Shown here: piece after piece, positions 10,406 to 30,693 of the stretch | Position numbering within the stretch: the stretch's first letter is position 1 | Layout: each line of letters starts with the position of its first letter | NCBI GenBank assembly: GCA_017795005.1 | Contig: CP051242.1 | Location: 1,550,001 to 1,614,000 of the forward strand | Source: Balneolaceae bacterium | GTDB lineage: Bacteria > Bacteroidota > Rhodothermia > Balneolales > Balneolaceae | Reading direction: 5' to 3' | Length of the DNA stretch: 64,000 nt | Translations under genes and position numbers: made by a program | Notes under the pieces: generated by a model | What the model was told of the DNA's origin: nothing | The model's input: only the letters and a program-made list of their open reading frames with translations | The model's database searches: none

Positions 10406-10516
10406 GGGTACATATACCCACTCATCTAGGTATTTGTACCTATAAAAATGAGTACCTCTCCTCATTGTAATTCCAGTGCGTTAAAAAGACATTTAAGTGG
10501 CTTGTAGGGGTACAAG
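10406..10516 (+). promoter_or_regulatory. Cluster of short GTAC-cored hairpins/palindromes upstream of the receiver-giant protein operon
   Basis: Between the second kinase and the receiver gene lie GGGTA-cata-TACCC (10406-10419), AGGTA-TTTG-TACCT (10428-10441) nested inside ACTCAT/ATGAGT (10420-10425/10448-10453), and CTTGTA-GGGG-TACAAG (10501-10516). Several half-sites fit the NarL heptamer TACYYMT known from enterobacteria: TACCTAT at 10437, TACCTCT at 10453 and, reversed, AGGGGTA at 10506. They may be operator sites for the NarL-type regulator encoded at 6592, or RNA hairpins in the leader. The last one could also act as a weak terminator for the kinase. Function is inferred only. Confidence 0.4.
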
Positions 10517-10540
10517 CTTTTCATTAAAGAAGGTACAGAA

Positions 10541-10915: not shown

Positions 10916-13900
10916 TTAATTATTTAAAAACTACTTACAGCTTCCTTGGTATTTTCATTCTTTTAGTTGGTACACAGACTGCGTATGCACAGTTTGATCC
11001 TCCTGAAGTAGGTCCGATTGCTGACTTTGTTGAGATAACAGGGACAACAGAAGTAGGTGAAGTTCTAACAGGTAGCTATGAGTATAATGATCCTTCAGAA
11101 TTACCTGAAAGTGGTTCAACATATCAATGGTATCGTTTAGATAGCGAATTTGACATTCCAGTAGCGATTGATGGTGCAACTGCTCAAACCTATACTTTGA
11201 CAAACGATGATGAAAACAAGTTCATTGTTTTTGAAGTTACACCGTCTAATGGTACCGACACGGGAAACCCAACTCCTAGTTTACCTGTTGGCTCCATCGG
11301 AACAGGTTCCGGCGGTGGAGGCGGAGGTGGAAATAACCCTCCAACAGTTTCAAATTTGAATATTAGTGGCACCCTCGAAGTTGGTTCTATCTTAACAGGT
11401 TCATATGATTTTAGTGATGCGGATGGAGATTCAGAATCAGGTTCTGTATACACCTGGTATCGTAGTGAGGATAGTGGCGGAACCAATAAAACAGCTATTG
11501 GTGGAGCAGATGCAACTACCTATACACTGGTAAGTGATGATGAAGGGAAATACATGAGTTTCTCGGTAATTCCCAGTGACGGAATTGATGCCGGTACTTC
11601 AGATGAAAGTTCTCTACAAGGTCCGGTTCAGTCAGAATCTGCTGGTGTAGCTTTTGCAGGAGGAGACGGAACACAAGGCGATCCATATCAAATTACTACC
11701 GCAGAACAGCTTCAGGAAATACAAAATAACCTCAGTAGTTATTTCATCTTAACGCAAAACATTGACGCTTCAGGAACCTCAAGCTGGAATAGCGGAGCCG
11801 GATTTGTACCTATTGGTGGTGATTCAACATTCAAAGGAAATTTAAATGGTAAGGGGTACAAAATTACCAGTTTGTTTATCGACCGTTCATCCACTGATAA
11901 TGTTGGACTATTTTCTACTATTGATGAAAATGGGGTTGTAGACAGTCTTGGAATTGATCAGGGAGATATTACCGGGGCACAAAATACTGCAGGTCTGGCA
12001 GGTGAGAACTATGGTACCATCACAAACAGTTATTATAGTGGAACCGTAACAGGTACTTCACAGGTAGGGGGGCTAGTGGCTCAGAATGCTGGTAATATTA
12101 CATCTTCTTACTCTGCCGGCTCTGCAACTGCTTCAGGTACCGATGTAGGAGGTTTAGTTGGAAACCACAATCTGGGGACAATCAGTAAATCGTACTCAAC
12201 AAGTACGGTTGCCGGCGGAAATAATGCAGGGGGATTAGTTGGCTTCACGAATGACAATATTGATAACAGTTATGCGACCGGGAATGTAAGCGGGTCAGAT
12301 CGTATCGGTGGGTTAATTGGTGATCAGAGTAGCGGTGTTTTATCTAATAGTTATTCTACAGGTACAGCAACTGGTAGTACCAATACCGGTGGATTTATTG
12401 GTTATAAAGAAAGTTTTGCTTCTGCCAGTAATAGCTTTTGGGATACTGAAACCAGTGGCACTTCAACAGGGGTTGGAACGGGTAGCGCGACCGGAATTAC
12501 AGGAAAGACGACCACCGAAATGAAAACTGAGTCGACCTTTACAAACGCCGGTTGGGACTTTACAAATACCTGGGAAATAGATGGAAATTACCCAACTCTA
12601 CAAGGCACAGGAAGTTCCGGGTCTGGATCAGGCAATACAGCTCCTTCTTTATCAAATCTGGTGGTAACCAATAAAACCGATGAAGGTCAAACTCCTGATC
12701 AGGGAGATGTATTAGCAGCCAGATATGATTTTAGCGATTCTGATGGAGATTCAGAGTCAGGCACTACCTTTCAGTGGTACAGAGCAGATGATAACAGCGG
12801 AATTAACTTGGAATCTATTTCAGGTGCAACAGACTCCACTTATACGGTTACATCTGATGATTTAGGGGAATTCCTGCGGGTGGATGTAACCCCAAATGAC
12901 GGAACTGATAGCGGAACGTTAGTTTCTAGTTCATATACAGAGGTTACAGCTGCAAATCAGGCACCTTCTGCTGGTGAGGTAACTATTAGTGGGACCCCCG
13001 CAATAGGAGAAACCTTAACAGCAAATTACTCCTATTCAGATCCGGATAGTGATCCTGAAGGTACAACAACTTTCCAATGGTACGTCGCAGTTGATGGTTC
13101 TGGTACCGGAGCTACTGCACTACCTGGAGCAACTTCACAAACATATCTGGTTACAGAAGCAGAAGAGGGTACTTTTTTAAGAGTAGACGTAACACCAAAT
13201 GACGGTTCACAAAATGGATCGGTATCTTCTTCGGCATATGTTCAGGTTAATGTTCGTCCGGCGCTAAACCCTGATTCTACCAGAATTACAGGGACACCGG
13301 AAGTAGGGGAAACTTTATTTGCTGCGTATACCTACGGAGATGTGGATTTAGATCCAAATGCCGGTTCACAGTTTAAATGGATGATTTCAAGTGATAATTC
13401 CGCATCGGATGAAGCTGCCATTTCCGGAGCAACAGACAGTAGTTATGTAGTTCAATCCGAAGACCTTGGGAAATTTATCCGGGTAGAAATCACTCCTTTT
13501 GATGGAACTTCTTCAGGTATCCCTGATACCACCGCTTTTGTGGAAATAATTAACGGGAATACAGCTCCAACAGTTACAAACCCTATTGCTGATATAACAG
13601 TAAACGAAGATGGTACGATAAGTAACATAGACCTTACAAATGTATTTAGCGATGCTGAAGAAAACGATTCAGATCTTAGCTATTCAGTTTTCTCAAATAC
13701 TGGATCAACTATAATAAATACTTCTGTTGATGCAGGTACAGATGAACTAAGTCTGACACTGGTAGCGGATTCTTCCGGTAGTGCTACTATAACTGTTCAA
13801 GCCGAAGATAGTCAGGGTTTAACGGTACAGGACTCATTTTTAGTAACTATTAATACAGTTAATGATGTTCCTTTATTTACCAAAGGTGGGGATCAGGTTC

Positions 13901-16900
13901 TCGACGAAAATGCGGGGGCACAGACTATTAATGGATGGTCAACAGGAATTAGCGCAGGCCCGGATGATGAGTCAGATCAAAACCTGAGCTTTAATATTTC
14001 TACGGATAATGATGATTTATTCTCTGTATTGCCGACGGTTGATCATGCTACGGGAAACCTGACGTTTACCCCTGCAGCAGATTCCTTTGGAGTTGCAAAT
14101 ATTACCATCAATCTTTCGGATAACGGCGGAACGGATAATGGCGGTTCGGATACCTCAGCAGATCAAAGTTTTACGATTACGGTTGAAGAAGTAATTAGCT
14201 TTGATCCGCTCACTGCATTTAGTACTACATGGAGAACAACCACCTCTAATGAGTCTATTACTCTTTACACTACAGGTGGAGCTGGTGTAACGGATTATGA
14301 TGCTTACATCGATTGGGGTGATGGTACTGATCTTGAGCAAATTACCGGTGATGATCCCGATCCAAGCCACCAATATTCTACTTCCGGTGACTACGTAGTG
14401 AAAGTGTATGGAACATTCCCTCATCTTGATCTTGTAAATGGTGTTGATGCATCAACCTATAGTACAACTCCGGCTCTTGCAGCAAACTCTGCAAAAGTAA
14501 TTGCCATTAATCAATGGGGAGATATAGCATGGGAATCGATGAAAGATATGTTTTATCAATCTCCGAATTTGGTTGCCTACTCTGCTTCTGACGTACCTGA
14601 TTTAAGTCTTGCCACGACCTTAGAAGGCATGTTTGCATTTACAGGTCTGTCTACAGCAGATTTGAGTGGTTGGGATGTAAGTACCATTACAGACTTCTCA
14701 AATATGTTCACAAACGCAACTAGTTTTAATGGAGATCTTTCCAGTTGGACATTTTCAAGTGCTGAATTTTCAGGTGCTACCGCAGTAAACTTTACCGGTA
14801 TGTTCAACTTAGCAAGTTCTTTTACAGGAACAGGATTAGCTAATTGGGACGTATCCAATGCCCAGACTATGTCGGTTATGTTTTCTGATGCCGCAGCATT
14901 CAATCAGGATTTGAGTGCTTGGGATATCAGTAATGTTTCTGATATGTTTTTATTTGCGGAAGGTTCTGCATTAAGTACTGCTAATTATTCTAGCATGCTT
15001 GCTGCCTGGGGTGCCCTGACCCTTCAAAGCGGAGTGGATTTTTCTGTTGGAACCACCACATATAATATTACAGGTCTGACCGGACACAATGAACTTACCA
15101 GCACATTTAGCTGGTCGGTTACCGATGGAGGCTTAACTGCGGGCGCTTTGAGTTTAACAACTTCTGAAGGTTCACCGGTAGATACTACCGTTACCGATAC
15201 CCTTTGGATGGATTTGACAATGGACGGTACTGTTGTGACGGATGCAATAACTCTGACCTGGATTTTAACGCCGGCAGCAGGAATGACTGCAACAGGTGCC
15301 CCGGTCTATGACCAAACCCGTCAACAGTGGGGATATGACCTGATCGGAATTGATGTTAGTGCTTTAGATCAGGAGTACTCTCTGAATATCTCGGCCTCTG
15401 TTTCTTTAGAGAATGGAAGTTCAAGCATAGAAGATAACTTCTCTATTAATATTACGGTCCCGAATACAGCTCCAACCCTTTTATCCGCAATTGCAGATTT
15501 TTCTGTCGATGAAGATGCTGATGATACGGTAATTGATTTGACCTCCATATTCTCTGATGCAGAGCAAACTTCAGGAGAACTTACTTTCTCTGTTGAATCA
15601 AATTCGAATACAGGATTGGTAAATGCCTCTGTAAATAATACGGCAGACGAATTGACATTTGCCTTTGTATCCAACCAGAACGGGGTTGCTGAGATTATTA
15701 TTCAGGCTCTGGATAATGGTGGGCTTACTCTACAGGATACCGTTAATATTACCGTGAATTCAATTAATGATGCACCGATAGTAAGTAATCCAATAGCCGA
15801 TTTAACTGTAAATGAAGACGCATCAGAAAGCAAAATCGATTTGAGCACAGTGTTTAGTGATCTGGAAGACAATGATTCGGATCTGACTGTATCATTGGTG
15901 TCCAATAGCGGGGAATCTGTTCTGAAGGATTCTCTAAGTACGACTACCAATGAACTGGTAATAACTTTGGTAGCAGATTCTTCAGGCTCCGCTGAAATAA
16001 TTCTGCAAGCAGAAGACAGTGAAGGTTTAACGGTACAAGATACAATCACTGTTACCGTAAATCCTGTAAATGATGCACCATATGCTCAGATTCTGTACCC
16101 AAATCCTGTGGTTGATAATGATTATGGTGCTTATACTCAAACACTTTTTATTGGAAGCTTTGATTTTGGCCCTGATAATGAATCGGAACAAACGATACAG
16201 GAATTTATTCTTACCACTGAACAAAGCGCCTTATTCGAAGTTCAACCCAAAATAGATTTCGTACCTCAGAATGGATACACCTTACCATCAGGAACATTAA
16301 GTTTTACACCAGCTTCTGATACCAGTGGAGTAGCAGCAGTAACAATTAAAGTTATTGATGACGGTGGAACTGATAACGGAGGTGTAAATTCGTTCGAAGT
16401 AACCTTTTTTGTTACTATTAATCAGGCTAACAGAGCCCCGGTAGCTAGTGATGTTGCCATTGCAGGCACGCCCAAGAAAGACTCTATCTTGGCCGCTACC
16501 TACACCTACAGCGATGCCGACGGGGATGCCAACCCGGGGGCAACCTTCCAGTGGTACCGCGCCAGCGATGCCTTCGGAACGGACTCCCTGGCCATCGGGG
16601 ATGCCACCGATTCGCTGTACACGGTAACCAGCGCCGATGCCGGGCAGTACCTGCGCGTGGCCATTACCCCCAACGATGGGCTAACCACCGGAACGGTAGT
16701 ACGTAGCAGTTGGGGGGGCGTAGAATCTGTGTTTAAACTCGCCGAAAACGGGGTAACCATAACGTGTAAGGAAGCCGATCTAAACGATACCGGAGTGGTT
16801 AACGGCATTACCTACAAGGCCCTTAGCAAAGACAGCCTGCGGGCACGCGCCAATGCCGATGAGGATGTGACTAACGCATGTACGAGTTTGATCACAAATA

Positions 16901-19900
16901 TGGATTCTATGTTTGGTTCAGCAAGCACTTTCAATCAGGATATTAGTAGCTGGGATGTAAGTTCGGTAACTAGTATGAACTTTATGTTTGAGTACCTCAA
17001 CGACTTTAACCATGACATCGGCAATTGGGATGTTTCTTCGGTTACATCTATGGTGAGTATGTTTCATGAAGCTACCTCTTTCAATCAGGATATTGGGGAT
17101 TGGGAGGTAGATTCTGTAACCACCATGTCATATATGTTTTCTTATGCCACTGCTTTTAATCAGGATATCGGCATTTGGGATGTTTCTTCGGTTACATCTA
17201 TGGTGAGTATGTTTCATGAAGCCACCTCTTTCAATCAAGATATTGGGGGTTGGGATGTGGATTCTGTGACGACTATGAATTTAATGTTTGCAGGTGCTAC
17301 CTCATTTAATCAACCCATTGGTGGCTGGATTGTAGAGGAAGTTACTGAGATGAGAAGTATGTTCTCTGGGGCAAGTTCTTTTAACCAAAGTTTAGCGGAC
17401 TGGGACATTTCTGAAGTCACAGACATGTATAACATGTTTTACGGAACAGACCTCAGTACGACCAATTATGATTTAATATTAAATGGCTGGGCTGCTTTAC
17501 CAAACGTACAACCTAACGTAGATTTTGGGGCTGGAGATGTACAGTACACGCCGGCAGCAAGAGCAGCCAGAGCTATTCTTACAGGGGCACCCAATAACTG
17601 GGCCATTACCGATGGCGGACGAACCAACATCGCTCCTGTGGCCACAAGTGTTTCTATTGGAGATGGTCCGTTTAAGCTTGGAGCTCAGATAACGGCAAGT
17701 GTTGATACTACCGATGCGGATGGAGATGCCATCACGTTAAGCTACCAGTGGTACCGCGCGGATGATGATCAGGGAGCAGGTGTGGTAGCCATTACCGATT
17801 CTACGGCTAAAACCTATACTCCAACGTCGGCGGATAACTTTAAATATCTGAAACTAGAAGTAACTCCAAATGACGGTATTGAAGCCGGAGCTACGGTTTC
17901 CAGTGGGTATGTTTTTGTCAGCCCGTTTGAGGGGGGTACCGGGGTGGAAGGCGATCCGTTCCTGATAGCTACCGTTATTCAATTGGATTCGGTTCGATCG
18001 AATTTAACGGCCCATTATAAACTCTTAAACGATCTTGATCTGGATATAGCACCCTATAATGAAGCAAAAGGATGGATCCCGATTTCTACATCTCTTCCGG
18101 AACCATTTTCCGGTCATTTTGATGGGGCAGGAAATACAATTGATGGGTTATTTATAAACAGTTCCGATTACTATTATTCAGGTTTATTCGGGATTGCCAT
18201 AGATGCGTATATAACAAATCTGAATTTTGAAAATGTGAATCTCTCCAGTAATAGAGTGATTGGTGCACTTGGGTATATTTATGGATCGAACTCGAATGTG
18301 AGCAATATCCGTGTATCCGGTAATATTCATGGGGATTATGCCGGTGGAATTGCCGGACAATTATGGAATAGGGCGAAGATATCTGAAAGCCGGTTTACAG
18401 GTAATATAACGGGCAGTAACGTTGGGGGGTTAGTCGGTTCTATTAGAGACGGCGCAAGTGTGGAAACAAGTTATTCCTTAGGCATATACACTGGTAGTAA
18501 GGAAGCAGGAGGAATAGTTGGATATGTTGAGCACGAATATGGAAGTGTTAAAAGTTCAATTAAAAACAGCTATTCTCTGGCTTCGGTAAGCGGGGAAAGA
18601 GGCTTTGGGGGGATAGCAAGTAACGACGCCCAATTAACGTTGAGCAATAGCTATCATTCAGGTGAGATAAGCGGTGCAAATTCCAACAGTTATTGGAATT
18701 CGGAGGGTACGGTTTTTTCAGGTGTCACAAATTCTGCCATGAAAGACTCCCTAACTTTTGATGGAGCAGGCTTCGATTTCACCAACATCTGGGCAATCGT
18801 TACCGGTGATTCGGTTAGTTATCCGTACCTGAAAAACAACCCGCAGAATCCAAAACCAGGTATTGCAAGAGCCAACACCGCCCCGGTAGCTAGTGATATT
18901 GCCATTGCAGGCACGCTCAAGAAAGACTCCGTCTTGGTCGCTACCTATACCTACAGCGATGCCGACGGGGATGCCAACGCCGGTGCTGCCTTCCAATGGT
19001 ACCGCGCCGATGATGATGCTGGAACCAACGCTGCAACCATAGGTGACGCAACCGATTCGCTGTACACGGTAACCAGCGCCGATGCCGACCACTATCTGAA
19101 GGTGGAGGTAACGCCGAACGATGGCTTAGAAGACGGTACCACCATATTGAGCAATTGGGCACTGGTGGAACCTGTATTTATACTCGCAGAAAACGGGATA
19201 ACCGTCACCTGTTCGGAGGCCGAAGTGGGTGACACCAGATACATAGCCGAATACAATCGGGAATTTACCAAGGTTAGTGAGTCCCAACTTCGGGCCATTG
19301 CTAACGATGATACTCGTTGGTCAGAGTTGTTAAGCGTATGTACCTCTGGTATTACCGATATGAGTGAGATGTTTTACGATCCTAATTGGATAATCGACTT
19401 TAGTAATTTTGATACCAATATCAGTCACTGGGATATGTCTGGTGTTACCAGTTTCAGTAATTTTTTAACATACACTGGTTTATCTCAAACCAATTACTCT
19501 GCACTAATTGAGGCATTAAATACACAGCCCCTTCAATCAGGAACTGAAGAAAACCCTATTGAATTTGGAGCGAATGAATTAATTTATTCCGGAACTGATC
19601 TGGAAAAGAAAATCAATATAATTGATACCTATAACTGGGATTTCGAAGGTGACGCGATTAATCGCGATAACGTAGAGTTGACACCTGTAGTTACCAATCC
19701 AACACTTGTAGGCACAGATTATTTTGAGTTTAAACTCACCATAGATGGTCTTGAAATTACAGATGCTCATGTTAATGAAATAAATCTTACATGGGCAGGA
19801 ACTAATTTTTCTAATGGTTTATTAGATGCAAAATATCAAGGCTCAGGAGTATGGGGTGCATTAGTATCTCATCTAGTAGATATAAATGATTTGCCGGCTG

Positions 19901-22900
19901 AAAAGGAGTTTCCAATAAATATTACAGTCGGAAATCAATACGGAGGTACTACAGCATATTACTCCCCACTATTTAATTTAACACTGGAAATTCAATATTC
20001 TGCAAACTTCAGTGTACTTGAAAATGGGGTAACCGTAGTATGTACAGATGCAGCAGTAGGAGAGAAAGGAATTATATCCTATAAAGGAGAAGACCGGGTA
20101 TTTACCAAAAGATCCCAGGATCAGATTACCACTGAAAATGCAGCTTCTACCTGTACAAGTGGTATTACCGACATGAGTAGTTTATTTAGTGCCGAGTCTC
20201 AATTTAATGAAGATATAAGTTCATGGGATGTTTCTGCAGTGACCAATATGTCTTTCATGTTTAATAATGCTACTATTTTCAATAAGGATATTTCTTACTG
20301 GGATGTTTCTTCGGTAACTAATATGCCTAATATGTTCGGTAATGCCCAAAGTTTTAATCAGCCTATTGGGAACTGGAACGTAAGTTCTGTTACAAATATG
20401 TATTCGATGTTCAGTAACACTTACGACTTCAATCAGGATATAAGTGGTTGGGACATTAGTTCGGTTACCCAAATGGCATCTATGTTTGAAGGAGCCCGTG
20501 CCTTTAACCAGAATCTTGGAAAATGGGATGTGAATTCTGTTATATATCTGGATAATATGTTAGATGGGGCTACTTCTTTCAATACCTCCAATTATGACTC
20601 CACGCTTATAGGCTGGTCACAACTGCCAAGCGTACAACCAAATGCGAACCTTGGAGCAGGAGATGCACAATACACCCCGGCGGCGAATGCAGCCCGTGCT
20701 ATTCTTACAGGGGCACCCAATAACTGGGTGATTACCGATGGTGGAATAATAATAGATGAGCTTGTTCTTACACAGCTTCAGACGAATCCAATACCTGATG
20801 TTGAGGAAGATGATAAAATCTACTTTACGTTAACTGCGGATGGAACCGGGATCGATTCTGCACTGGCAAAAGATTTTGGTATAACATGGCCTGAGCGATT
20901 AGAAGGGCAAAACCAAGGCTTGGTTCAAGCAGGTTCACCAAAGTATGACTCGGAACAAAATGCATGGTATTATACAGTTTCGGATTTGATTCCTGCGGAT
21001 AATACACAACGACAATATGGCGAACTGACCTATAGTTTTTCAGCCAAAAAGGAGGGACAGAATACGGTAAACTCCAATGAATTAGGTCTATCTTTCAATT
21101 TGATTAATGCCTATACAGAACTTCAGTTACAGGTTCAGTTTTCTGATGTAAATGGAAATACCGATGGAAATTGGATATCTGCGAATACGGTTTCTGATAT
21201 CAGAATTGGACAGAAAAAGCTCTTCAAGCTTAGAGCGGTTTGGTTAAACCCTTCCAGCCAGGACCCTACTGATATACGTGCATTAACTGAGTCCGAGAAA
21301 AATGCTCTTCAATTTGAAACAATTAATGGAAGCGATGCTCAGCCAAGTCTTGTTAAATTTAATGACGATGTAGTCTTTGCTTCTACGGGCATGGATGATT
21401 ATGATGGTTGGAAATACCATTCATTATCCATCCATTACTCACACGAATTTAGTGCGGGTGAAAATATCGTCCGACTTCAGGCTAACCTTGGACAAGGGCA
21501 ACCTGCTGACAGCATTGATATTCAATTAACAAATATCGATTTCCGGCCATTTGTACTATCACTTGAAGATGACCCATTAACAACAGCTATTGTTTCTGGT
21601 ACTACTATCGAAATTGACTTGCCCTCAACCAGTACCTACGATTTCTATCTATTGATTGACGAAAATGTTGAACTTACTCGTGTTACCGATGCAGATATCC
21701 AGAATGGAAGCTATACAATAACCTACGATTATGCTGTAGCAGCGGGCCCAAATACCGGTATTATTCAAATATGGGGAACGTTCCCGGCTGTTCAACATCT
21801 GGATGTATTCAGCAGAGTATTGCAATGGGGTGATATTGAATGGAAGTCAATGGAACAGATGTTTTCCGAAAAATTTCAAACGCCCAGACTAAATAGTATT
21901 ACTGCGACAGATGTACCAGATTTATCTCAAGCGACAAGCCTGAGAGCAATGTTCCAGGGTGTGTCTTACTTCAATAGTGATATTTCCAATTGGGATGTTT
22001 CCAATATCACAGATATGAGTTTCATGTTTAGTGGAGCACATGCGTTTAATCAACCACTTGGTAACTGGGATGTTTCTTCGGTTACATCTATGGAGAGTAT
22101 GTTTCATGAAGCCACCTCTTTCAATCAAGATATTGGGGGTTGGGATGTGGATTCTGTGACGACTATGAATTTAATGTTTGCAGGTGCTACCTCATTTAAT
22201 CAACCCATTGGTGGCTGGATTGTAGAGGAAGTTACTGAGATGAGAAGTATGTTCTCTGGGGCAAGTTCTTTTAACCAAAGTTTAGCGGACTGGGACATTT
22301 CTGAAGTCACAGACATGTATAACATGTTTTACGGAACAGACCTCAGTACGACCAATTATGATTTAATATTAAATGGCTGGGCTGCTTTACCAAACGTACA
22401 ACCTAACGTAGATTTTGGGGCTGGAGATGTACAGTACACGCCGGCAGCAAGAGCAGCCAGAGCTATTCTTACAGGGGCACCCAATAACTGGGCCATTACC
22501 GATGGCGGACGAACCAACATCGCTCCTGTGGCCACAAGTGTTTCTATTGGAGATGGTCCGTTTAAGCTTGGAGCTCAGATAACGGCAAGTGTTGATACTA
22601 CCGATGCGGATGGAGATGCCATCACGTTAAGCTACCAGTGGTACCGCGCGGATGATGATCAGGGAGCAGGTGTGGTAGCCATTACCGATTCTACGGCTAA
22701 AACCTATACTCCAACGTCGGCGGATAACTTTAAATATCTGAAACTAGAAGTAACTCCAAATGACGGTATTGAAGCCGGAGCTACGGTTTCCAGTGGGTAT
22801 GTTTTTGTCAGCCCGTTTGAGGGGGGTACCGGGGTGGAAGGCGATCCGTTCCTGATAGCTACCGTTATTCAATTGGATTCGGTTCGATCGAATTTAACGG

Positions 22901-25900
22901 CCCATTATAAACTCTTAAACGATCTTGATCTGGATATAGCACCCTATAATGAAGCAAAAGGATGGATCCCGATTTCTACATCTCTTCCGGAACCATTTTC
23001 CGGTCATTTTGATGGGGCAGGAAATACAATTGATGGGTTATTTATAAACAGTTCCGATTACTATTATTCAGGTTTATTCGGGATTGCCATAGATGCGTAT
23101 ATAACAAATCTGAATTTTGAAAATGTGAATCTCTCCAGTAATAGAGTGATTGGTGCACTTGGGTATATTTATGGATCGAACTCGAATGTGAGCAATATCC
23201 GTGTATCTGGTAATATTCATGGGGATTATGCCGGTGGAATTGCCGGACAATTATGGAATAGGGCGAAGATATCTGAAAGCCGGTTTACAGGTAATATAAC
23301 GGGCAGTAACGTTGGGGGGTTAGTCGGTTCTATTAGAGACGGCGCAAGTGTGGAAACAAGTTATTCCTTAGGCATATACACTGGTAGTAAGGAAGCAGGA
23401 GGAATAGTTGGATATGTTGAGCACGAATATGGAAGTGTTAAAAGTTCAATTAAAAACAGCTATTCTCTGGCTTCGGTAAGCGGGGAAAGAGGCTTTGGGG
23501 GGATAGCAAGTAACGACGCCCAATTAACGTTGAGCAATAGCTATCATTCAGGTGAGATAAGCGGTGCAAATTCCAACAGTTATTGGAATTCGGAGGGTAC
23601 GGTTTTTTCAGGTGTCACAAATTCTGCCATGAAAGACTCCCTAACTTTTGATGGAGCAGGCTTCGATTTCACCAACATCTGGGCAATCGTTACCGGTGAT
23701 TCGGTTAGTTATCCGTACCTGAAAAACAACCCGCAGAATCCAAAACCAGGTATTGCAAGAGCCAACACCGCCCCGGTAGCATTAACCCCGGCGATAGTGG
23801 GCTATCCAAAAATAGGGGCTACTATTGCTGCAACATATACCTTTGAAGATAGTGATGGCGATGCAAATGCAGGGGCTTCCTTCCAGTGGTATCGCAGGGT
23901 TAACGAAATAGTTAATTACTCGGTTGTTTCAACTGAAACAAAAATAGATGGTGCTACAGATTCGCTGTACACGGTTACTGAGAATGATAATCTGAATGAC
24001 CTTCGGGTTCGAATTGTACCATTTGATGGTTTTACGACAGGTGACACAGTATATAGTGGATATATAACAGGAAGTCCGTTTGACGGAGGTATAGGAGTGG
24101 AAGGAGATCCATTCCTCGTCTCAACCGCAGAACAGCTTAATTCCATGCGCGATGTAATGGATCCTGAAAATACAATCAGTATAAATCCGCATGTAAAACT
24201 AACTAACGACATTGATCTGACATCAGCAACAAGATCTGGTGGCGCTTTCTATAACGAAGGTGCCGGTTGGCAGCCTATCGGAGAGTATTTTGATTTTGGG
24301 TCTGGTGAAGGAACTACAACTAATTTTTCCGGGGTGTTTGACGGAAATGGACATACTATTAATGGGTTGTTTATTAATCGTTCGAATCAATCCTATGTTG
24401 GCTTCTTCGGATGGGTATTTGGTGAAGTTAAAAACCTGACACTTACAAATGTTGATATTACCGCAGGAAATGCTACGGGTGGACTCTCCGGCTACAATTC
24501 CAGTGCGACGTTTACTAATGTACATGTTACCGGAACGGTACGTAGTAATAGTGGTATGGCTGGTGGTATTACCGGATCACTTTGGAATAATGGAAGTATT
24601 CATAAGTCTTCCTTTAATGGAACTCTTACCGGTTCTTCTGTTGGGGGTATTTCAGGAGATCTGGAAAGTGAAGATGATGGAGAGAATACATTGATTGATC
24701 AGTCTTATGCTACAGGTACTTTTTCGGGGGGTACTGTGGGCGGAATTGTTGGCTCACTATCGGGAGGAGGAACATTATCAAACAGTTACTCAGCTGCAGA
24801 TATTACCGGAACTAACAATACAGGCGGTCTTGTAGGTACTGGAGACAGAGACTTAACAATAACAAATAGTGCTGCATTTGGAATCGTAAGTGGCACTAAT
24901 GCAGGTGGGATAAGTGGTTTGTCGGAGTCATTTTTTCCTCGCTTATTGGGATCCGGGATATTCTGGAATCAAACTACTACGGGGCAGTTCAGTGCGTACC
25001 CAACGCAGGATTTAACAGGAGCAACAGGACTTACAACCTCAGCCATGAAAGACTCCCTTACTTTTGCAAATGCAGGTTGGGACTTTACCAATATCTGGGC
25101 GATTGCCACAGGAGACTCCCTGAGTTATCCCTATCTGAAAAACAATGCACAAAACCCTAAACCGGGGATTCAAAAATATGTTCCTCCGTTTATTCTTGCA
25201 CAAAATGGAGTAACGGTAACCTGTTCCGAAGCAGAAGTTGGTGATATCGCTGAGGTCAACAACATATCTTACACCAAAAGAGATCGGGCAGGTCTTGATG
25301 CACTTCTTGCCGACCAAAGCAAATGGGCAGAGTTAGCCACTACTTGTACAAGCGGTATTACTGACATGTCTCATCTATTCGATGGACATATATCTTTTAA
25401 TGAAGATATTTCCAGTTGGGATGTGTCCAGTGTCACAGATATGACATCCATGTTCATGCCAACGACAAATCTGGGTGCAGATGTGAAATTTAATCAGGAT
25501 ATCGGAGCATGGGATGTATCTAATGTAACTTCCATGTATCAGATGTTTACAGGAGCGAACTCCTTCAATCAGGATATCGGTGATTGGGATGTAACATCAG
25601 TTACAAATATGCATGGAATGTTTAGTTATGCTTCTTCTTTCAATCAGGATATAAGCAGTTGGAATGTTAGTTCTGTTACCAACATGTCGGGTATGTTTAA
25701 TGAAGCAACTTCTTTTAACAATGGAGGGGGAGCATTGAATTGGGGAGATAAAACAGCAGCGGTTACAGATATGACCAATATGTTTAAATCTGCAAGTTCA
25801 TTTAATCAGGATATTGGCAATTGGAATGTAAGTGCCGTAACAAACATGAATGGTATGTTTTATAGCGCTGGGTCATTTAATCAACCCTTAAATGATTGGA

Positions 25901-28900
25901 ATGTTTCATCTGTTACTGATATGTCTTACATGTTTGGTTTAGCTTCATCATTCAATAAGAATATCAATAACTGGAATATGAGTTTAGTAACGGATATAAC
26001 AGAAATGTTTAATTACGCTACTTCCTTTAATCAGGATTTAAGTAATTGGGATTTTTCTTCTGTAACCAGTGCGACTTCCTTTTTAGATTATAGTGGAATT
26101 GATAGTGTCAACTACAGTGCTTTACTTGGGACACTGGGGTCGGTAGAAAAAGGATTAAACGCATTAGAAAACCAAACAGGAGAATTAGGAGTAAGAGGAC
26201 GGAACTACTTCTTTTCAACACTTCCAAGCCGGGTTAAGATCTATGATCTTCCATATAATATTGTGGGAGACACCCTAACTCTGGGTGAAGGAGGTAGCTT
26301 CGATTTAATTGCAGTTTCAGAAGGAAATGTAACAGATACCTTTATTTTTAATGCTACAGTTACCGATAATTCAAGTTCAGAGAGTACAGTACATCATACT
26401 GTAACTGATAATTTCAATATAAATTTTAAGGAAGAAGACAATCCAGGGCTTTCAGAGGAAGAACTTGACTATTTAGTTAACTTAATACCAGTCTATAATA
26501 CTGCCGAGCAAGAATGGAATCTGGATATTTCAGAGCTGCTGGAATATATCCCGAATGGGGGTACTTTCACATTTACCGCTTCTTTTAGTACTGTAGCAAA
26601 TATATCTGCTGAACTGCCAACGCTAAGCTTTAGCGTTATTCCAACGTTCAAGCTTGCCGAAAACGGAGTAACGGTTACATGTAAGGAAGCCAGTCCGAAT
26701 GACACGGGAGTAGTCAATGGCGTGACTTATAAAGCCCTTAGTGCTGACAGCCTGCGTACGCGAGCTAGAACGGGTGTAGACGTGACTAACGTATGCACGA
26801 GTTTGGTTACCACAATGTATGCCCTATTTGATGTAAATAATGGCCCTGACGGTCCTCAGCCTAATCCATTCAATCAGGATATTAGTAGCTGGGATGTATC
26901 TTCGGTAACTGATATGAGTTATATGTTCTATTATGCTAATACCTTCAATAAAAATATTAGTCACTGGGATGTTTCATCTGTGACGAGTATGCAAGGCATG
27001 TTCGATTATGCCGCAGCTTTTAACCAGGATATTGGTAACTGGAATGTGAGTTCGGTAACCGATATGAGCTATATGTTTAATAGAGCCGGTGTATTCAATC
27101 AGAATCTTGGTAAATGGGACATTTCAAAGGTATCTCATTTTAATCAATTTCTGGAGAATAGCGGTATAACCAGCACTAATTACGATTCGTTGTTAATTGG
27201 CTGGAGCGAACTGCCCAGTGTGCAGCCTAATCTGAGGTTGAGTGTTGGTGATGTACAATACTCCTCTGAAGCAAGTGAAGCCCGGGCGAAGCTAACAGGT
27301 GCTCCAAATAACTGGACCATTACCGATGGGGGGCTTGAAACACCAAAATTCATACTTGCCGAAAACGGAGTAACAGTAACGTGTAAAGAAGCCAGTACGA
27401 ATGATACGGGAATAGTTAATGGCATTACCTACAAAGCGCTGAGCGAAGACAGCCTTCGCGCGCGGGTGGCAGCCGATCAGGATGTAACTAATGTGTGTAC
27501 GAGTTTAGTAACTGATATGAGTCGTTTATTTTTTAAGGGTATAGATTCGGATCTTTTTGAACCGCTTCCAAATTCCTTTAATCAGGATATTAGTAGCTGG
27601 GATGTATCCTCTGTAACGTCTATGAAAGATATGTTTTGGCATGCCTCTTCCTTTAACCAGGGCATAGGAGACTGGGATGTAAGTGCAGTTACAACGATGG
27701 AAGGGATGTTTGAAGGCGCAAAAACTTTTAATCAGGATATTGGCAGCTGGGATGTAAGTGCAGTTACAACCATGGAAGATATGTTTCAGGGAGCATTTGC
27801 TTTTGATCAGGATATAAGTAACTGGGATGTATCTTCTGTTACAAATATGGCAGTAATGTTTTACTACGCTACTGCTTTCAATCAGGATATAGGAGATTGG
27901 GATGTGAGTTCGGTTACCCAAATGGGGATTATGTTTCAGGGAGCTTCTGCCTTTAATCAGAATCTTGGTAAATGGGACATTTCAAAGGTATCTCATTTTA
28001 ATCAATTTCTGGAGAATAGCGGTATAACCAGCACTAATTACGATTCGTTGTTAATTGGCTGGAGCGAACTGCCCAGTGTGCAGCCTAATCTGAGGTTGAG
28101 TGTTGGTGATGTACAATACTCCTCTGAAGCAAGTGAAGCCCGGGCGAAGCTAACAGGTGCTCCAAATAACTGGACCATTACCGATGGAGGACTTGATTTG
28201 AAAGTCTTTCCGATCGCCGAGAACGGGGTAACGGTTACCTGTAAGGAAGCTCAACCAAATGACATAGGATTGGTAGGGGACGTCATTTACAAAGCCTTGA
28301 GTGAAGACAGCTTACGTACCCGAGTCGCTTCAAATCAGGATGTTACCAATGTATGTACCAGTTTAGTGACTAATATGAGTAGTTTATTCTTGGATAAAAC
28401 AGAATTTAATCAGGACATAGGAAACTGGGATGTGAGCTCAGTAACTAATATGAATGCTATGTTTCTAGATGCTTCAGCGTTTAATCAGGATATAGGGAAC
28501 TGGGATGTTAGTTCAGTAACTAATATGAATCTTATGTTTAGTGGAGCTGTCTTGTTTAATCAGGATATAAGTAGCTGGAACGTAAGTTCAGTAACAACAA
28601 TGAGAAGTATGTTCCAAAGAGCTGAAAAGTTCAATACATCTATAGCCGCTTGGGAGCCTGTTAAGGTTACAACAGCAGTGGGGATGTTTGAACAAGCAAC
28701 ATCATTCAATCAAAATATAAGCGATGTATGTTTTCCTCTAGTTGATGCAGAAACAGACGGAAGAGAAATTTTTGCCGGCGGACCGTTGGCAAGCTCTTCA
28801 TTTACTTCCTGGCCAAACTGGGGTACTTGTACCGAACCAAAAGCTGTAACATCTACCCTTTCGGTGCTTGATGGAGACGGTAATACTGCGTGTCCAGATG

Positions 28901-30693
28901 GGGTTGATGTTGGTGAATTTGTTACGATAGCCATCGAAATTAAAGATTCGAACGGCAGAACATATACAAGCGCTAATAGTCATTTAGTTGATGCCTTTGT
29001 ACCTGCAGCGTCTTTAGGATTGGGAAGTGACCTCGTTTTCAATTACAATGAAAATAACGAGCAATGGGAAGCTACTTTTGCAAATTCGGTGTTAGGAACT
29101 TTCGAGTATTATGTAGGACTAAAACATAGCGATGAACCGGATGTATATGGAGAATTCGAGCTTTGTCTTGCTACTTTTGTAATGGGCGGTAACGGCTTTT
29201 TTAAAGAAATGAAAAAAGAAAAAAGCCAGGAAAATGCTGAGACTTTAGCGAATACCACTCCATTTGTTCTTGGCTTGGAACATTATCGAACCGAGACAAA
29301 TGGTACACTGGTAAGAGATACGCTACGTGTATTCATCGATTGGGGAGATGGTACCACCGAGCAATTTAAAGGAATGGGCTATCCTACTCATACCTATGCC
29401 ACAACAGAGTTACCTCAAATTAAAGTAGCGGGTAACCAGAACAGCTTTAAGGCTTCTGCTGCAAAAAACCAGATTTCTAAACTAAGAACCATTAGTGACT
29501 GGGGGAATACAAAGTGGGTGGATATGACCGATGCCTTCCGTGGAGCTATGAACCTGAATATCACCACTAAAGATGCACCGGATCTCAGTAAAGTTAAAAG
29601 CACTGCGAACATGTTTAAAGGGGCCAGATCCTTTAACGCACCGGTTAAGAACTGGGATGTTTCGAACATCACTAATATGACCGATATGTTCCAGGGTGCA
29701 TCTAAATTTAATCAGAACCTGGATAGCTGGGATGTATCTAATGTTATGGTGTTTGACAGCAACCCAAGAACATCTGCACAAAAAACGAAGGCAAATGAAT
29801 TGGATTCATCGGAAGAAAATGAGATGATGGAAAGACCGGACTTAGATATGGATTTTGTGGAAGATTACGAACCAGGCGGAAAGCTGAAGGTTAATACTTC
29901 CAATACAATTTCAGGGTTTCTGGTCGGTACAGCAATGTCACCGAATAATCTGGATTCACTACTTATTGGTTGGTCGAAGCTGGATCTGGTAGACGGAGTT
30001 GGCTTCAGTGTTGGAACACTTCAATATGGAAGTGCGGGTAAAGCAGCACTCGATCAAATCCGATCCAATAATGGCTGGACGGTAGTTTCCGGTGGAGAAG
30101 AAGGCGGTAACGACGCCCCTGTATTCTCTAACTTCCCTGATACTGTTCAGATTTCATTCGGTTCTACTTCAGTAATTCCGGTCTGGCAATTTGTTAACGA
30201 TACAAACACTCCTGATGATGAGCTTGATTTCGGATTCGAAGTAATTTCAGATTCAGCCATCACTTTCAGTTATGATGATACAAACGGTAACCTGTCTGTA
30301 ACAGCTCCTGAAATTACCTTGACTTTCCAGGTTGCGGTATTAGTTACCAATAACGACTTCATAGCGGCATCCGACACCGTAACCATAGAAGCAGTTTCTT
30401 CAGTGGATATAGAAGAAGAAACACTGGTGAATGAGTTCAGGTTAAGTCAGAACTATCCAAATCCGTTCAACCCATCTACTACGGTTTCATTCGATATACC
30501 GATAGGATCACATGTCCGCCTGGAAGTGTACAACATGTTGGGGCAGAAAGTACTTACTGTACTGGACGAATTTAAGTCAGCGGGTACTCATCAGGCCAAA
30601 ATTGATATGAAGACTCTGAACAGCGGAACCTATTTGTACAGATTGAGCGCAGGAAATAATTCAACCACAAAGATTATGACCTTAATCAAATAG
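10912..30693 (+). CDS. Giant modular surface protein (6,593 aa): Ig-like, cadherin-like, GLUG and BspA/DUF285 repeats, T9SS-type sorting tail
   Basis: A signal peptide (residues 1-27, ending AYAQ) leads a protein of roughly 0.7 MDa. Modules in order by nucleotide: Ig-like (11010-11630), GLUG (11640-12600), Ig-like (12640-13550), cadherin/tandem-95-like (13560-14180), BspA-type DUF285 (14190-15130), tandem-95 (15470-16430), Ig-like (16435-16725), DUF285 (16730-17620), Ig-like plus GLUG (17635-18870). Then come Ig-like (18880-19170), DUF285 arrays (19180-19620, 20010-20750, 21780-22510), Ig-like plus GLUG (22525-23760), Ig-like plus GLUG (23770-25170) and DUF285 arrays (25180-28830 and 29330-30090). 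A cadherin-like domain and the sorting tail (NYPNPFNPST ... TKIMTLIK) end it. DUF285 units follow the 25-residue theme FNQDIGxWDVSSVTxMxxMF, each array opened by a LAENGVTVTC module and closed by ITDGG. A very large adhesin or cell-surface filament is likely. It carries a nearly exact internal duplication and GC-rich patches, listed separately. Confidence 0.9.
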   Translation: MINYLKTTYSFLGIFILLVGTQTAYAQFDPPEVGPIADFVEITGTTEVGEVLTGSYEYNDPSELPESGSTYQWYRLDSEFDIPVAIDGATAQTYTLTNDDENKFIVFEVTPSNGTDTGNPTPSLPVGSIGTGSGGGGGGGNNPPTVSNLNISGTLEVGSILTGSYDFSDADGDSESGSVYTWYRSEDSGGTNKTAIGGADATTYTLVSDDEGKYMSFSVIPSDGIDAGTSDESSLQGPVQSESAGVAFAGGDGTQGDPYQITTAEQLQEIQNNLSSYFILTQNIDASGTSSWNSGAGFVPIGGDSTFKGNLNGKGYKITSLFIDRSSTDNVGLFSTIDENGVVDSLGIDQGDITGAQNTAGLAGENYGTITNSYYSGTVTGTSQVGGLVAQNAGNITSSYSAGSATASGTDVGGLVGNHNLGTISKSYSTSTVAGGNNAGGLVGFTNDNIDNSYATGNVSGSDRIGGLIGDQSSGVLSNSYSTGTATGSTNTGGFIGYKESFASASNSFWDTETSGTSTGVGTGSATGITGKTTTEMKTESTFTNAGWDFTNTWEIDGNYPTLQGTGSSGSGSGNTAPSLSNLVVTNKTDEGQTPDQGDVLAARYDFSDSDGDSESGTTFQWYRADDNSGINLESISGATDSTYTVTSDDLGEFLRVDVTPNDGTDSGTLVSSSYTEVTAANQAPSAGEVTISGTPAIGETLTANYSYSDPDSDPEGTTTFQWYVAVDGSGTGATALPGATSQTYLVTEAEEGTFLRVDVTPNDGSQNGSVSSSAYVQVNVRPALNPDSTRITGTPEVGETLFAAYTYGDVDLDPNAGSQFKWMISSDNSASDEAAISGATDSSYVVQSEDLGKFIRVEITPFDGTSSGIPDTTAFVEIINGNTAPTVTNPIADITVNEDGTISNIDLTNVFSDAEENDSDLSYSVFSNTGSTIINTSVDAGTDELSLTLVADSSGSATITVQAEDSQGLTVQDSFLVTINTVNDVPLFTKGGDQVLDENAGAQTINGWSTGISAGPDDESDQNLSFNISTDNDDLFSVLPTVDHATGNLTFTPAADSFGVANITINLSDNGGTDNGGSDTSADQSFTITVEEVISFDPLTAFSTTWRTTTSNESITLYTTGGAGVTDYDAYIDWGDGTDLEQITGDDPDPSHQYSTSGDYVVKVYGTFPHLDLVNGVDASTYSTTPALAANSAKVIAINQWGDIAWESMKDMFYQSPNLVAYSASDVPDLSLATTLEGMFAFTGLSTADLSGWDVSTITDFSNMFTNATSFNGDLSSWTFSSAEFSGATAVNFTGMFNLASSFTGTGLANWDVSNAQTMSVMFSDAAAFNQDLSAWDISNVSDMFLFAEGSALSTANYSSMLAAWGALTLQSGVDFSVGTTTYNITGLTGHNELTSTFSWSVTDGGLTAGALSLTTSEGSPVDTTVTDTLWMDLTMDGTVVTDAITLTWILTPAAGMTATGAPVYDQTRQQWGYDLIGIDVSALDQEYSLNISASVSLENGSSSIEDNFSINITVPNTAPTLLSAIADFSVDEDADDTVIDLTSIFSDAEQTSGELTFSVESNSNTGLVNASVNNTADELTFAFVSNQNGVAEIIIQALDNGGLTLQDTVNITVNSINDAPIVSNPIADLTVNEDASESKIDLSTVFSDLEDNDSDLTVSLVSNSGESVLKDSLSTTTNELVITLVADSSGSAEIILQAEDSEGLTVQDTITVTVNPVNDAPYAQILYPNPVVDNDYGAYTQTLFIGSFDFGPDNESEQTIQEFILTTEQSALFEVQPKIDFVPQNGYTLPSGTLSFTPASDTSGVAAVTIKVIDDGGTDNGGVNSFEVTFFVTINQANRAPVASDVAIAGTPKKDSILAATYTYSDADGDANPGATFQWYRASDAFGTDSLAIGDATDSLYTVTSADAGQYLRVAITPNDGLTTGTVVRSSWGGVESVFKLAENGVTITCKEADLNDTGVVNGITYKALSKDSLRARANADEDVTNACTSLITNMDSMFGSASTFNQDISSWDVSSVTSMNFMFEYLNDFNHDIGNWDVSSVTSMVSMFHEATSFNQDIGDWEVDSVTTMSYMFSYATAFNQDIGIWDVSSVTSMVSMFHEATSFNQDIGGWDVDSVTTMNLMFAGATSFNQPIGGWIVEEVTEMRSMFSGASSFNQSLADWDISEVTDMYNMFYGTDLSTTNYDLILNGWAALPNVQPNVDFGAGDVQYTPAARAARAILTGAPNNWAITDGGRTNIAPVATSVSIGDGPFKLGAQITASVDTTDADGDAITLSYQWYRADDDQGAGVVAITDSTAKTYTPTSADNFKYLKLEVTPNDGIEAGATVSSGYVFVSPFEGGTGVEGDPFLIATVIQLDSVRSNLTAHYKLLNDLDLDIAPYNEAKGWIPISTSLPEPFSGHFDGAGNTIDGLFINSSDYYYSGLFGIAIDAYITNLNFENVNLSSNRVIGALGYIYGSNSNVSNIRVSGNIHGDYAGGIAGQLWNRAKISESRFTGNITGSNVGGLVGSIRDGASVETSYSLGIYTGSKEAGGIVGYVEHEYGSVKSSIKNSYSLASVSGERGFGGIASNDAQLTLSNSYHSGEISGANSNSYWNSEGTVFSGVTNSAMKDSLTFDGAGFDFTNIWAIVTGDSVSYPYLKNNPQNPKPGIARANTAPVASDIAIAGTLKKDSVLVATYTYSDADGDANAGAAFQWYRADDDAGTNAATIGDATDSLYTVTSADADHYLKVEVTPNDGLEDGTTILSNWALVEPVFILAENGITVTCSEAEVGDTRYIAEYNREFTKVSESQLRAIANDDTRWSELLSVCTSGITDMSEMFYDPNWIIDFSNFDTNISHWDMSGVTSFSNFLTYTGLSQTNYSALIEALNTQPLQSGTEENPIEFGANELIYSGTDLEKKINIIDTYNWDFEGDAINRDNVELTPVVTNPTLVGTDYFEFKLTIDGLEITDAHVNEINLTWAGTNFSNGLLDAKYQGSGVWGALVSHLVDINDLPAEKEFPINITVGNQYGGTTAYYSPLFNLTLEIQYSANFSVLENGVTVVCTDAAVGEKGIISYKGEDRVFTKRSQDQITTENAASTCTSGITDMSSLFSAESQFNEDISSWDVSAVTNMSFMFNNATIFNKDISYWDVSSVTNMPNMFGNAQSFNQPIGNWNVSSVTNMYSMFSNTYDFNQDISGWDISSVTQMASMFEGARAFNQNLGKWDVNSVIYLDNMLDGATSFNTSNYDSTLIGWSQLPSVQPNANLGAGDAQYTPAANAARAILTGAPNNWVITDGGIIIDELVLTQLQTNPIPDVEEDDKIYFTLTADGTGIDSALAKDFGITWPERLEGQNQGLVQAGSPKYDSEQNAWYYTVSDLIPADNTQRQYGELTYSFSAKKEGQNTVNSNELGLSFNLINAYTELQLQVQFSDVNGNTDGNWISANTVSDIRIGQKKLFKLRAVWLNPSSQDPTDIRALTESEKNALQFETINGSDAQPSLVKFNDDVVFASTGMDDYDGWKYHSLSIHYSHEFSAGENIVRLQANLGQGQPADSIDIQLTNIDFRPFVLSLEDDPLTTAIVSGTTIEIDLPSTSTYDFYLLIDENVELTRVTDADIQNGSYTITYDYAVAAGPNTGIIQIWGTFPAVQHLDVFSRVLQWGDIEWKSMEQMFSEKFQTPRLNSITATDVPDLSQATSLRAMFQGVSYFNSDISNWDVSNITDMSFMFSGAHAFNQPLGNWDVSSVTSMESMFHEATSFNQDIGGWDVDSVTTMNLMFAGATSFNQPIGGWIVEEVTEMRSMFSGASSFNQSLADWDISEVTDMYNMFYGTDLSTTNYDLILNGWAALPNVQPNVDFGAGDVQYTPAARAARAILTGAPNNWAITDGGRTNIAPVATSVSIGDGPFKLGAQITASVDTTDADGDAITLSYQWYRADDDQGAGVVAITDSTAKTYTPTSADNFKYLKLEVTPNDGIEAGATVSSGYVFVSPFEGGTGVEGDPFLIATVIQLDSVRSNLTAHYKLLNDLDLDIAPYNEAKGWIPISTSLPEPFSGHFDGAGNTIDGLFINSSDYYYSGLFGIAIDAYITNLNFENVNLSSNRVIGALGYIYGSNSNVSNIRVSGNIHGDYAGGIAGQLWNRAKISESRFTGNITGSNVGGLVGSIRDGASVETSYSLGIYTGSKEAGGIVGYVEHEYGSVKSSIKNSYSLASVSGERGFGGIASNDAQLTLSNSYHSGEISGANSNSYWNSEGTVFSGVTNSAMKDSLTFDGAGFDFTNIWAIVTGDSVSYPYLKNNPQNPKPGIARANTAPVALTPAIVGYPKIGATIAATYTFEDSDGDANAGASFQWYRRVNEIVNYSVVSTETKIDGATDSLYTVTENDNLNDLRVRIVPFDGFTTGDTVYSGYITGSPFDGGIGVEGDPFLVSTAEQLNSMRDVMDPENTISINPHVKLTNDIDLTSATRSGGAFYNEGAGWQPIGEYFDFGSGEGTTTNFSGVFDGNGHTINGLFINRSNQSYVGFFGWVFGEVKNLTLTNVDITAGNATGGLSGYNSSATFTNVHVTGTVRSNSGMAGGITGSLWNNGSIHKSSFNGTLTGSSVGGISGDLESEDDGENTLIDQSYATGTFSGGTVGGIVGSLSGGGTLSNSYSAADITGTNNTGGLVGTGDRDLTITNSAAFGIVSGTNAGGISGLSESFFPRLLGSGIFWNQTTTGQFSAYPTQDLTGATGLTTSAMKDSLTFANAGWDFTNIWAIATGDSLSYPYLKNNAQNPKPGIQKYVPPFILAQNGVTVTCSEAEVGDIAEVNNISYTKRDRAGLDALLADQSKWAELATTCTSGITDMSHLFDGHISFNEDISSWDVSSVTDMTSMFMPTTNLGADVKFNQDIGAWDVSNVTSMYQMFTGANSFNQDIGDWDVTSVTNMHGMFSYASSFNQDISSWNVSSVTNMSGMFNEATSFNNGGGALNWGDKTAAVTDMTNMFKSASSFNQDIGNWNVSAVTNMNGMFYSAGSFNQPLNDWNVSSVTDMSYMFGLASSFNKNINNWNMSLVTDITEMFNYATSFNQDLSNWDFSSVTSATSFLDYSGIDSVNYSALLGTLGSVEKGLNALENQTGELGVRGRNYFFSTLPSRVKIYDLPYNIVGDTLTLGEGGSFDLIAVSEGNVTDTFIFNATVTDNSSSESTVHHTVTDNFNINFKEEDNPGLSEEELDYLVNLIPVYNTAEQEWNLDISELLEYIPNGGTFTFTASFSTVANISAELPTLSFSVIPTFKLAENGVTVTCKEASPNDTGVVNGVTYKALSADSLRTRARTGVDVTNVCTSLVTTMYALFDVNNGPDGPQPNPFNQDISSWDVSSVTDMSYMFYYANTFNKNISHWDVSSVTSMQGMFDYAAAFNQDIGNWNVSSVTDMSYMFNRAGVFNQNLGKWDISKVSHFNQFLENSGITSTNYDSLLIGWSELPSVQPNLRLSVGDVQYSSEASEARAKLTGAPNNWTITDGGLETPKFILAENGVTVTCKEASTNDTGIVNGITYKALSEDSLRARVAADQDVTNVCTSLVTDMSRLFFKGIDSDLFEPLPNSFNQDISSWDVSSVTSMKDMFWHASSFNQGIGDWDVSAVTTMEGMFEGAKTFNQDIGSWDVSAVTTMEDMFQGAFAFDQDISNWDVSSVTNMAVMFYYATAFNQDIGDWDVSSVTQMGIMFQGASAFNQNLGKWDISKVSHFNQFLENSGITSTNYDSLLIGWSELPSVQPNLRLSVGDVQYSSEASEARAKLTGAPNNWTITDGGLDLKVFPIAENGVTVTCKEAQPNDIGLVGDVIYKALSEDSLRTRVASNQDVTNVCTSLVTNMSSLFLDKTEFNQDIGNWDVSSVTNMNAMFLDASAFNQDIGNWDVSSVTNMNLMFSGAVLFNQDISSWNVSSVTTMRSMFQRAEKFNTSIAAWEPVKVTTAVGMFEQATSFNQNISDVCFPLVDAETDGREIFAGGPLASSSFTSWPNWGTCTEPKAVTSTLSVLDGDGNTACPDGVDVGEFVTIAIEIKDSNGRTYTSANSHLVDAFVPAASLGLGSDLVFNYNENNEQWEATFANSVLGTFEYYVGLKHSDEPDVYGEFELCLATFVMGGNGFFKEMKKEKSQENAETLANTTPFVLGLEHYRTETNGTLVRDTLRVFIDWGDGTTEQFKGMGYPTHTYATTELPQIKVAGNQNSFKASAAKNQISKLRTISDWGNTKWVDMTDAFRGAMNLNITTKDAPDLSKVKSTANMFKGARSFNAPVKNWDVSNITNMTDMFQGASKFNQNLDSWDVSNVMVFDSNPRTSAQKTKANELDSSEENEMMERPDLDMDFVEDYEPGGKLKVNTSNTISGFLVGTAMSPNNLDSLLIGWSKLDLVDGVGFSVGTLQYGSAGKAALDQIRSNNGWTVVSGGEEGGNDAPVFSNFPDTVQISFGSTSVIPVWQFVNDTNTPDDELDFGFEVISDSAITFSYDDTNGNLSVTAPEITLTFQVAVLVTNNDFIAASDTVTIEAVSSVDIEEETLVNEFRLSQNYPNPFNPSTTVSFDIPIGSHVRLEVYNMLGQKVLTVLDEFKSAGTHQAKIDMKTLNSGTYLYRLSAGNNSTTKIMTLIK
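16436..16862 (+). other. GC-rich, codon-atypical patch inside the giant gene
   Basis: This Ig-like domain and the following LAENGVTVTC module use GCC, ACC, GGG and CGC codons heavily (for example GATGCCGACGGGGATGCC), while flanking modules of the same domain families use AT-rich codons. A related GC-richer patch lies at about 18880-19230 and matches the first 92 bp of this one at roughly nine bases in ten. The contrast suggests modules of separate origin shuffled into the gene. Confidence 0.55.
17026..17222 (+). repeat. Local 150-bp-spaced direct repeat that forms the edge of the large duplication
   Basis: Bases 17026-17072 and 17176-17222 are identical (coding WDVSSVTSMVSMFHEA), and the sequence beyond remains similar. 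The second copy is exactly where the 1,715-bp duplicated block begins, so this motif could have been the crossover site. Confidence 0.7.
17176..18890 (+). repeat. Copy 1 of a 1,715-bp, almost identical internal duplication
   Basis: I compared this block base by base with 22066-23780 (constant offset 4,890). There are no indels and only two differences: T at 17204 versus A at 22094 (Val to Glu) and C at 18318 versus T at 23208 (silent). The block carries the end of a DUF285 array, one Ig-like domain and one GLUG module, and stops a few codons into the next Ig-like domain, at NTAPVA. Confidence 0.93.
22066..23780 (+). repeat. Copy 2 of the 1,715-bp internal duplication
   Basis: Second copy of 17176-18890, same orientation and frame, two substitutions in 1,715 bp. 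Sequence upstream of 22066 and downstream of 23780 differs entirely from that around copy 1, apart from shared repeat motifs. It is either a very recent duplication or gene conversion, or an assembly artefact. Confidence 0.93.
27097..27329 (+). repeat. Copy 1 of a 233-bp exact duplication in the giant gene
   Basis: Identical to 27955-28187 (offset 858). It codes for the closing part of a DUF285 array (NQNLGKWDISKVSHFNQFL to NNWTITDG). The neighbouring opening modules are similar but diverged, which again points to recent exchange between repeats. Confidence 0.88.
27955..28187 (+). repeat. Copy 2 of the 233-bp exact duplication
   Basis: Identical to 27097-27329. The identity ends at the Gly codons after ITDG, where the copies read GGGGGGCTT versus GGAGGACTT. 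Confidence 0.88.

Follow-up and report, generated by a model that had tools for sequence, protein, structure and literature searches.

A young internal copy in a giant DUF285/PARCEL-type gene of a Balneolaceae bacterium, best read as recurrent intragenic recombination

Within the 64,000-nucleotide stretch of DNA analysed here (hereafter the window), a single reading frame of 6,593 codons contains two copies of a 1,715-bp block that agree at all but two sites; the best reading of this arrangement is recurrent intragenic recombination in a putative surface protein of the DUF285/PARCEL type. We consider it fairly probable that a recent, non-reciprocal copy event carried the last part of PARCEL array 2 and its Ig-GLUG module to the corresponding site behind the start of array 5 within the same gene. 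The genome consists of one contig of 3,747,071 bases (3.75 Mb); the coordinates of the relevant features are compiled in Table 1.

Table 1. Features of the giant gene and its upstream neighbours (window coordinates).
Feature	Coordinates	Strand	Remarks
Propeller histidine kinase HK1	3591..6602	+	conserved neighbour in orthologous loci
LuxR-type response regulator RR1	6592..7242	+	conserved neighbour in orthologous loci
Propeller histidine kinase HK2	7375..10389	+	conserved neighbour in orthologous loci
Stand-alone receiver RR2	10541..10915	+	conserved neighbour in orthologous loci; overlaps giant ORF start by 4 bp
Giant ORF	10912..30693	+	6,593 aa; signal-like N-terminus, Ig (AIR9-type) and cadherin-like modules, GLUG modules, about ten DUF285/PARCEL arrays, T9SS type A sorting tail
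Paralogous Ig start (NRAPVAS)	16429..16445	+	polarises the right seam (junction comparison)
Diverged sibling of 17167-17267 (first PARCEL units of the block)	17017..17117	+	6/101 differences; in the array of copy 1 only
Block copy 1	17176..18890	+	judged native (donor); last four PARCEL turns, cap, Ig, GLUG beta-helix, linker, first residues of next Ig (NTAPVA)
Left seam of copy 1	17176..17203	+	28-bp WDVSSVTSM-coding motif
Right seam of copy 1 (AACACCGCCCCGGTAGC)	18874..18890	+	runs into TAGTGAT...GCAGGCACG, like the paralogous Ig at 16429; apparently native junction
Spacer between block copies	18891..22065	+	3,175 bp; Ig, head, arrays 3-4, head of array 5
Block copy 2	22066..23780	+	judged recipient; differs from copy 1 at 2 of 1715 sites
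Left seam of copy 2	22066..22093	+	28-bp motif
Right seam of copy 2	23764..23780	+	runs into a different Ig type; chimeric junction
Second identity island, copy a	27097..27329	+	PARCEL array end and cap; 233 bp with no mismatch to copy b
Second identity island, copy b	27955..28187	+	offset 858
T9SS type A C-terminal sorting domain	30454..30675	+	Pfam/NCBIfam scans

DUF285/PARCEL arrays, AIR9-type Ig and GLUG modules and the C-terminal T9SS type A sorting domain of the giant ORF were identified by Pfam and NCBIfam scans; the 25-residue tandem repeats reached up to 827 bits (PF03382) and up to 268 bits (TIGR02167) per gene segment, far above the cut-offs, and the signal peptide was judged by eye only. 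Since the sorting domain and SprA, the outer-membrane channel of the T9SS, are both encoded in this genome, export of the giant protein via the T9SS can fairly be expected; the type A tail is the one feature that suggests its location at the surface. The targeting to the membrane or to secretion that many PARCEL family members show is indicated here by the same domain together with SprA. A second, much smaller DUF285 gene (approximately 660 aa; L058, G000:C1:738000-752000) is located elsewhere in the same genome and is devoid of near-identical internal repeats.

The duplication with only two substitutions that had been proposed in the original prediction proved to be exact: in a base-by-base comparison, 1713 of the 1715 sites agreed and no gaps were required. 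One mismatch (17204/22094, T/A) replaces Val (GTG) by Glu (GAG), the other (18318/23208, C/T) is silent in a Ser codon (TCC/TCT). The offset of 4,890 bp corresponds to 3 x 1,630, and the two copies share one reading frame. Identity drops to approximately 50% only a few bases beyond either block edge. Searching the complete genome returned exactly two full copies of the block, all other matches being limited to at most 160 bp at 68-85% identity. The divergence of 0.12% (95% range 0.014-0.42%; two sites out of 1,715 bp) indicates that the event is recent or that the copies have been refreshed since. Such agreement greatly exceeds chance expectation: among the other long gapped pairs of the giant gene (at least 150 bp), the next best are 70-77% identical if the second, 233-bp island is set aside; the earlier view that other copies of these domain families have diverged widely is thus correct for most long pairs, but not for 27097-27329 and 27955-28187, which are 100% identical. 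It had also been supposed that the intervening 3.2 kb alone could be lost by the same route; a crossover between the copies, however, would remove 4,890 bp (one copy and the 3,175-bp spacer) and leave a predicted in-frame product of 4,963 aa.

In the structure model of the block (mean pLDDT 74.5), four short strands spaced 25 residues apart (solenoid) are followed by two cap helices, an Ig-like sandwich and a long beta-helix over the GLUG part, with a low-confidence linker at block residues 527-571. The block as modelled is a structural cassette: its left edge coincides with a solenoid-turn boundary, and on the right it ends in a flexible linker followed by the opening residues of the adjacent Ig. 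The proposed span of complete modules is thereby largely backed, with the qualification that the DUF285 part comprises the last four turns and the cap, not a complete array, and that the right edge extends 5-6 codons into the next Ig. The modelled GLUG beta-helix is similar to PDB 3n6z and to part of the IgA1 proteases (Foldseek). A protease role is not proposed: the matched IgA1 protease regions correspond to the GLUG beta-helix stalk and have the fold alone in common with it, and the Pfam scan of the giant ORF matched the M26 N-terminal region model only and no catalytic protease domain.

The two edges of the block allow the copies to be polarised. On the left, the block does begin at the repeated WDVSSVTSM motif, the 28-bp coding sequence of which is identical at 17026, 17176 and 22066 and nowhere else in the window. 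A diverged sibling of the first PARCEL units is situated just upstream of copy 1, and none is present beside copy 2; given its 6 differences in 101 positions, the sibling is older than the copy event. It carries T at the base matching 17204, and the A at 22094 is on that account probably the derived base. On the right, copy 1 reads GCCCCGGTAGC followed by TAGTGATATTGCCATTGCAGGCACG, and the paralogous Ig at 16429 reads GCCCCGGTAGC followed by TAGTGATGTTGCCATTGCAGGCACG; the edge of copy 1 is considered continuous because the Ig at 16429 runs on alike, whereas copy 2 switches to a different Ig. In addition, an array-cap-Ig-GLUG unit of the G059 orthologue aligns with the whole block (48% at the amino acid level) at a roughly corresponding position of the gene. 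Judged from the right junction, the left sibling and the G059 unit taken together, 17176-18890 looks like the source and 22066-23780 like the recipient.

The second island (27097-27329 = 27955-28187) had been overlooked in the first reading of the sequence. It is embedded in a 930-bp alignment of 75% identity with in-register flanks that are 64-72% identical, and differs from shuffled alignment columns at p ~2e-27; such column shuffles assume independent sites, and significant runs of 40-60 bp may partly represent conserved motifs. The pattern of intragenic conversion, an identity island within in-register diverged homology, is clearly displayed by these 233 bp, and the main block shows it with short flanks; of the two, the 233-bp island is the cleaner case of gene conversion. 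The FG-GAP protein at the start of the window (15-720) contains repeats spaced by 441 bp (86 bp at 96.5%), and its self-alignments revealed no significant conversion-like island.

Orthologues were searched for across the family with the N-terminal 591 aa as query. The N-terminal identity was 71-73% in G061, G063, G059 and G018 and 59-66% in G023, G080, G075 and G077 (two other genera overall), and two genomes of the same genus were without an orthologue; this distribution suggests horizontal transfer or repeated loss. A broader protein-level scan of contigs yielded only distant relatives of at most 49% identity, as did phage records. The unbroken orthologous reading frames range from 2,394 to 7,511 aa, a divergence between genera and not a population variation; their ends are colinear, and the middle varies in the order and number of modules. 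Significant identity islands were present in six of nine orthologue sequences, i.e. G061 (4), G063 (1), G059 (6), the 5' part of G018 (3), G080 (1) and G077 (3), with longest exact runs of 68-121 bp in alignments averaging 68-87% identity; no significant islands were present in G075, the 3' part of G018, the truncated G023 piece and the control FG-GAP gene. Every near-identical orthologue pair of at least 75 bp showed an offset that is a multiple of three, and the block of the window is longer and fresher than any orthologue island. The G018 orthologue is split over L086 (G018:C6:1-20000) and L059 (G018:C21:132000-148947) with a 20-bp overlap inside a repeated Ig module, probably an assembly break caused by the repeat. 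With the second island and the orthologue islands at hand, the conversion part of the original alternative (very young, or kept uniform by conversion) has gained backing, and the young intragenic copy is well supported.

How the block reached its second site may be envisaged as ectopic gene conversion or cassette replacement via homologous recombination, presumably of the RecA type, whereby pairing would probably have been anchored by short seams (on the left the conserved 28-bp motif of a PARCEL turn, on the right the Ig start that codes for NTAPVA). Exchange of this kind would recur in the giant gene, with selection retaining only in-frame, domain-respecting products. Identity profiles revealed in-register diverged homology on both sides of the block (PARCEL on the left, 50-78%; Ig on the right, 42-68%), these homologous flanks being short (~125-150 bp per side). 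Downstream of copy 2, an Ig follows directly and neither a remainder of array 5 nor a cap is found; a plain insertion is disfavoured, as the rest of array 5 and its cap would remain there, and copy 2 would appear to have replaced an earlier sequence at its site. A tree of the Ig-GLUG units singled out no unit as the replaced one. A single replacement event (gene conversion) is the shortest account, and its main rival, possible but rather unlikely in our view, is a duplication followed by a deletion: PARCEL motifs in arrays 2 and 5 would have recombined by unequal crossing over to give an in-frame tandem duplication of 4,890 bp, and a later deletion between Ig starts would have removed most of its second unit. 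Both junctions are indeed located in motifs common to many modules, and tandem module expansion is seen in orthologues (for example with offsets of 1,902 bp in the case of G061 and G059 and of ~1.3 kb in G018). Yet a simple 4,890-bp tandem duplication is disfavoured because the identity spans 1,715 bp and not 4,890; no trace of the remaining duplicate is left after 23780, and two events would be needed in the short time allowed by two substitutions. Against the copy or conversion reading it can be held that an illegitimate event followed by selection for intact domains could also leave in-register flanks, and that conversion can be cleanly separated from duplication plus deletion only with the sequence of the copy 2 site before the event.

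An assembly artefact, i.e. one real copy placed twice, is unlikely: short reads resolve repeats of such length poorly, and in G018 the orthologue breaks off at a repeated module, but the genome is a single contig, both copies have unique flanks and differ at two sites, the frame stays open across all 6,593 codons, and false joins at just 28 and 17 bp would be needed for entry and exit; furthermore, real copying is evidenced by the shorter second island and the orthologue islands. Still less probable is a horizontal import from a differently ordered allele of another strain with subsequent recombination. The variable module order among orthologues, and the absence of the gene from two genomes of the same genus as opposed to its presence in other genera, which implies that the locus moves or is lost, would agree with such an import; it is, however, unnecessary with an identical source already present in the same gene. 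Although an association of PARCEL genes with mobile elements exists for some taxa (PMC2996958), a mobile-element insertion appears extremely improbable: no long inverted repeats were detected in the window, no further copies in the genome and no transposase in the block, and the flanks are homologous instead of representing a split target. A mobile-element origin was rejected for want of termini and of other copies.

A propeller histidine kinase, a LuxR-type regulator and a stand-alone receiver are encoded directly upstream of the giant gene in all eight orthologous loci of the two other genera. As RR2 overlaps the giant start, the gene order suggests that the regulators (3591-10915) and the giant gene form one operon. 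The genes downstream of the giant gene in the window (FA desaturase, PadR, MacB, GH20) were not found after the orthologue in the six loci examined. It is doubtful, albeit conceivable, that the giant gene acts as a self-contained generator of diversity, in which conserved PARCEL turns and Ig starts would serve as recombination seams and whole structural cassettes would change position in frame with appreciable frequency; surface variants would then arise within a single population, controlled by the conserved propeller two-component operon upstream.

Intragenomic shuffling of PARCEL repeats has been proposed before (Roske et al. 2010, PMC2996958). The giant protein shares with PARCEL (DUF285/TIGR02167) proteins the tandem 25-residue arrays, the predicted secretion and the proposed shuffling; in contrast to them, it is 6,593 aa long and includes Ig and GLUG modules as well as a T9SS tail, what was copied is a cassette of several domains instead of single repeats, and no mobile element is situated near the gene. 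Dyad symmetry of the PARCEL DNA was not recovered: the best palindrome score of 26 aligned units was equalled or exceeded in 58 of 300 synonymous-codon shuffles (a simple test, different from the MEME analysis of that paper). This result counts against the strict PARCEL DNA definition, and membership is restricted to the DUF285/TIGR02167 protein family; likewise, the shuffles gave no support to dyad symmetry of the repeat DNA as the cause of the breakpoints. In the Periscope concept, surface proteins change in length via recombination between near-identical repeats (PMC8201768, PMC9704523). As in this class (SasG, Rib, Sgo_0707, CdrA), near-identical internal DNA repeats could alter the length of the giant protein by intragenic recombination. 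Periscope proteins, however, possess tandem folded repeats of more than 50 residues with at least 80% identity, whereas the 99.9% identical copies of the giant gene are dispersed (3,175 bp apart), most other modules have diverged (most pairs at ~70-77% DNA identity), and the protein is of the T9SS type instead of being wall-anchored; the giant gene resembles Periscope proteins without being identical to them. Gene conversion between repeats of bacterial surface-protein genes, reported for example for mgpC of Mycoplasma genitalium (PMC2169797), likewise diversifies an exposed protein by copying segments from one homologous sequence to another; the giant gene differs in holding donor and recipient in one reading frame, with neither separate silent cassettes nor signs of a high frequency seen.

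The principle is already well known, and the block is a clear but ordinary case of modular reshuffling in bacterial surface proteins; a caution for such genes is that their assemblies can break at repeated modules. The block represents a young, polarised example of how a giant modular putative surface protein gains and homogenises cassettes, with two seams recognisable in its sequence, and the orthologues (2,394-7,511 aa), with their common operon and shuffled middle, show that the giant gene has evolved in this way recurrently.
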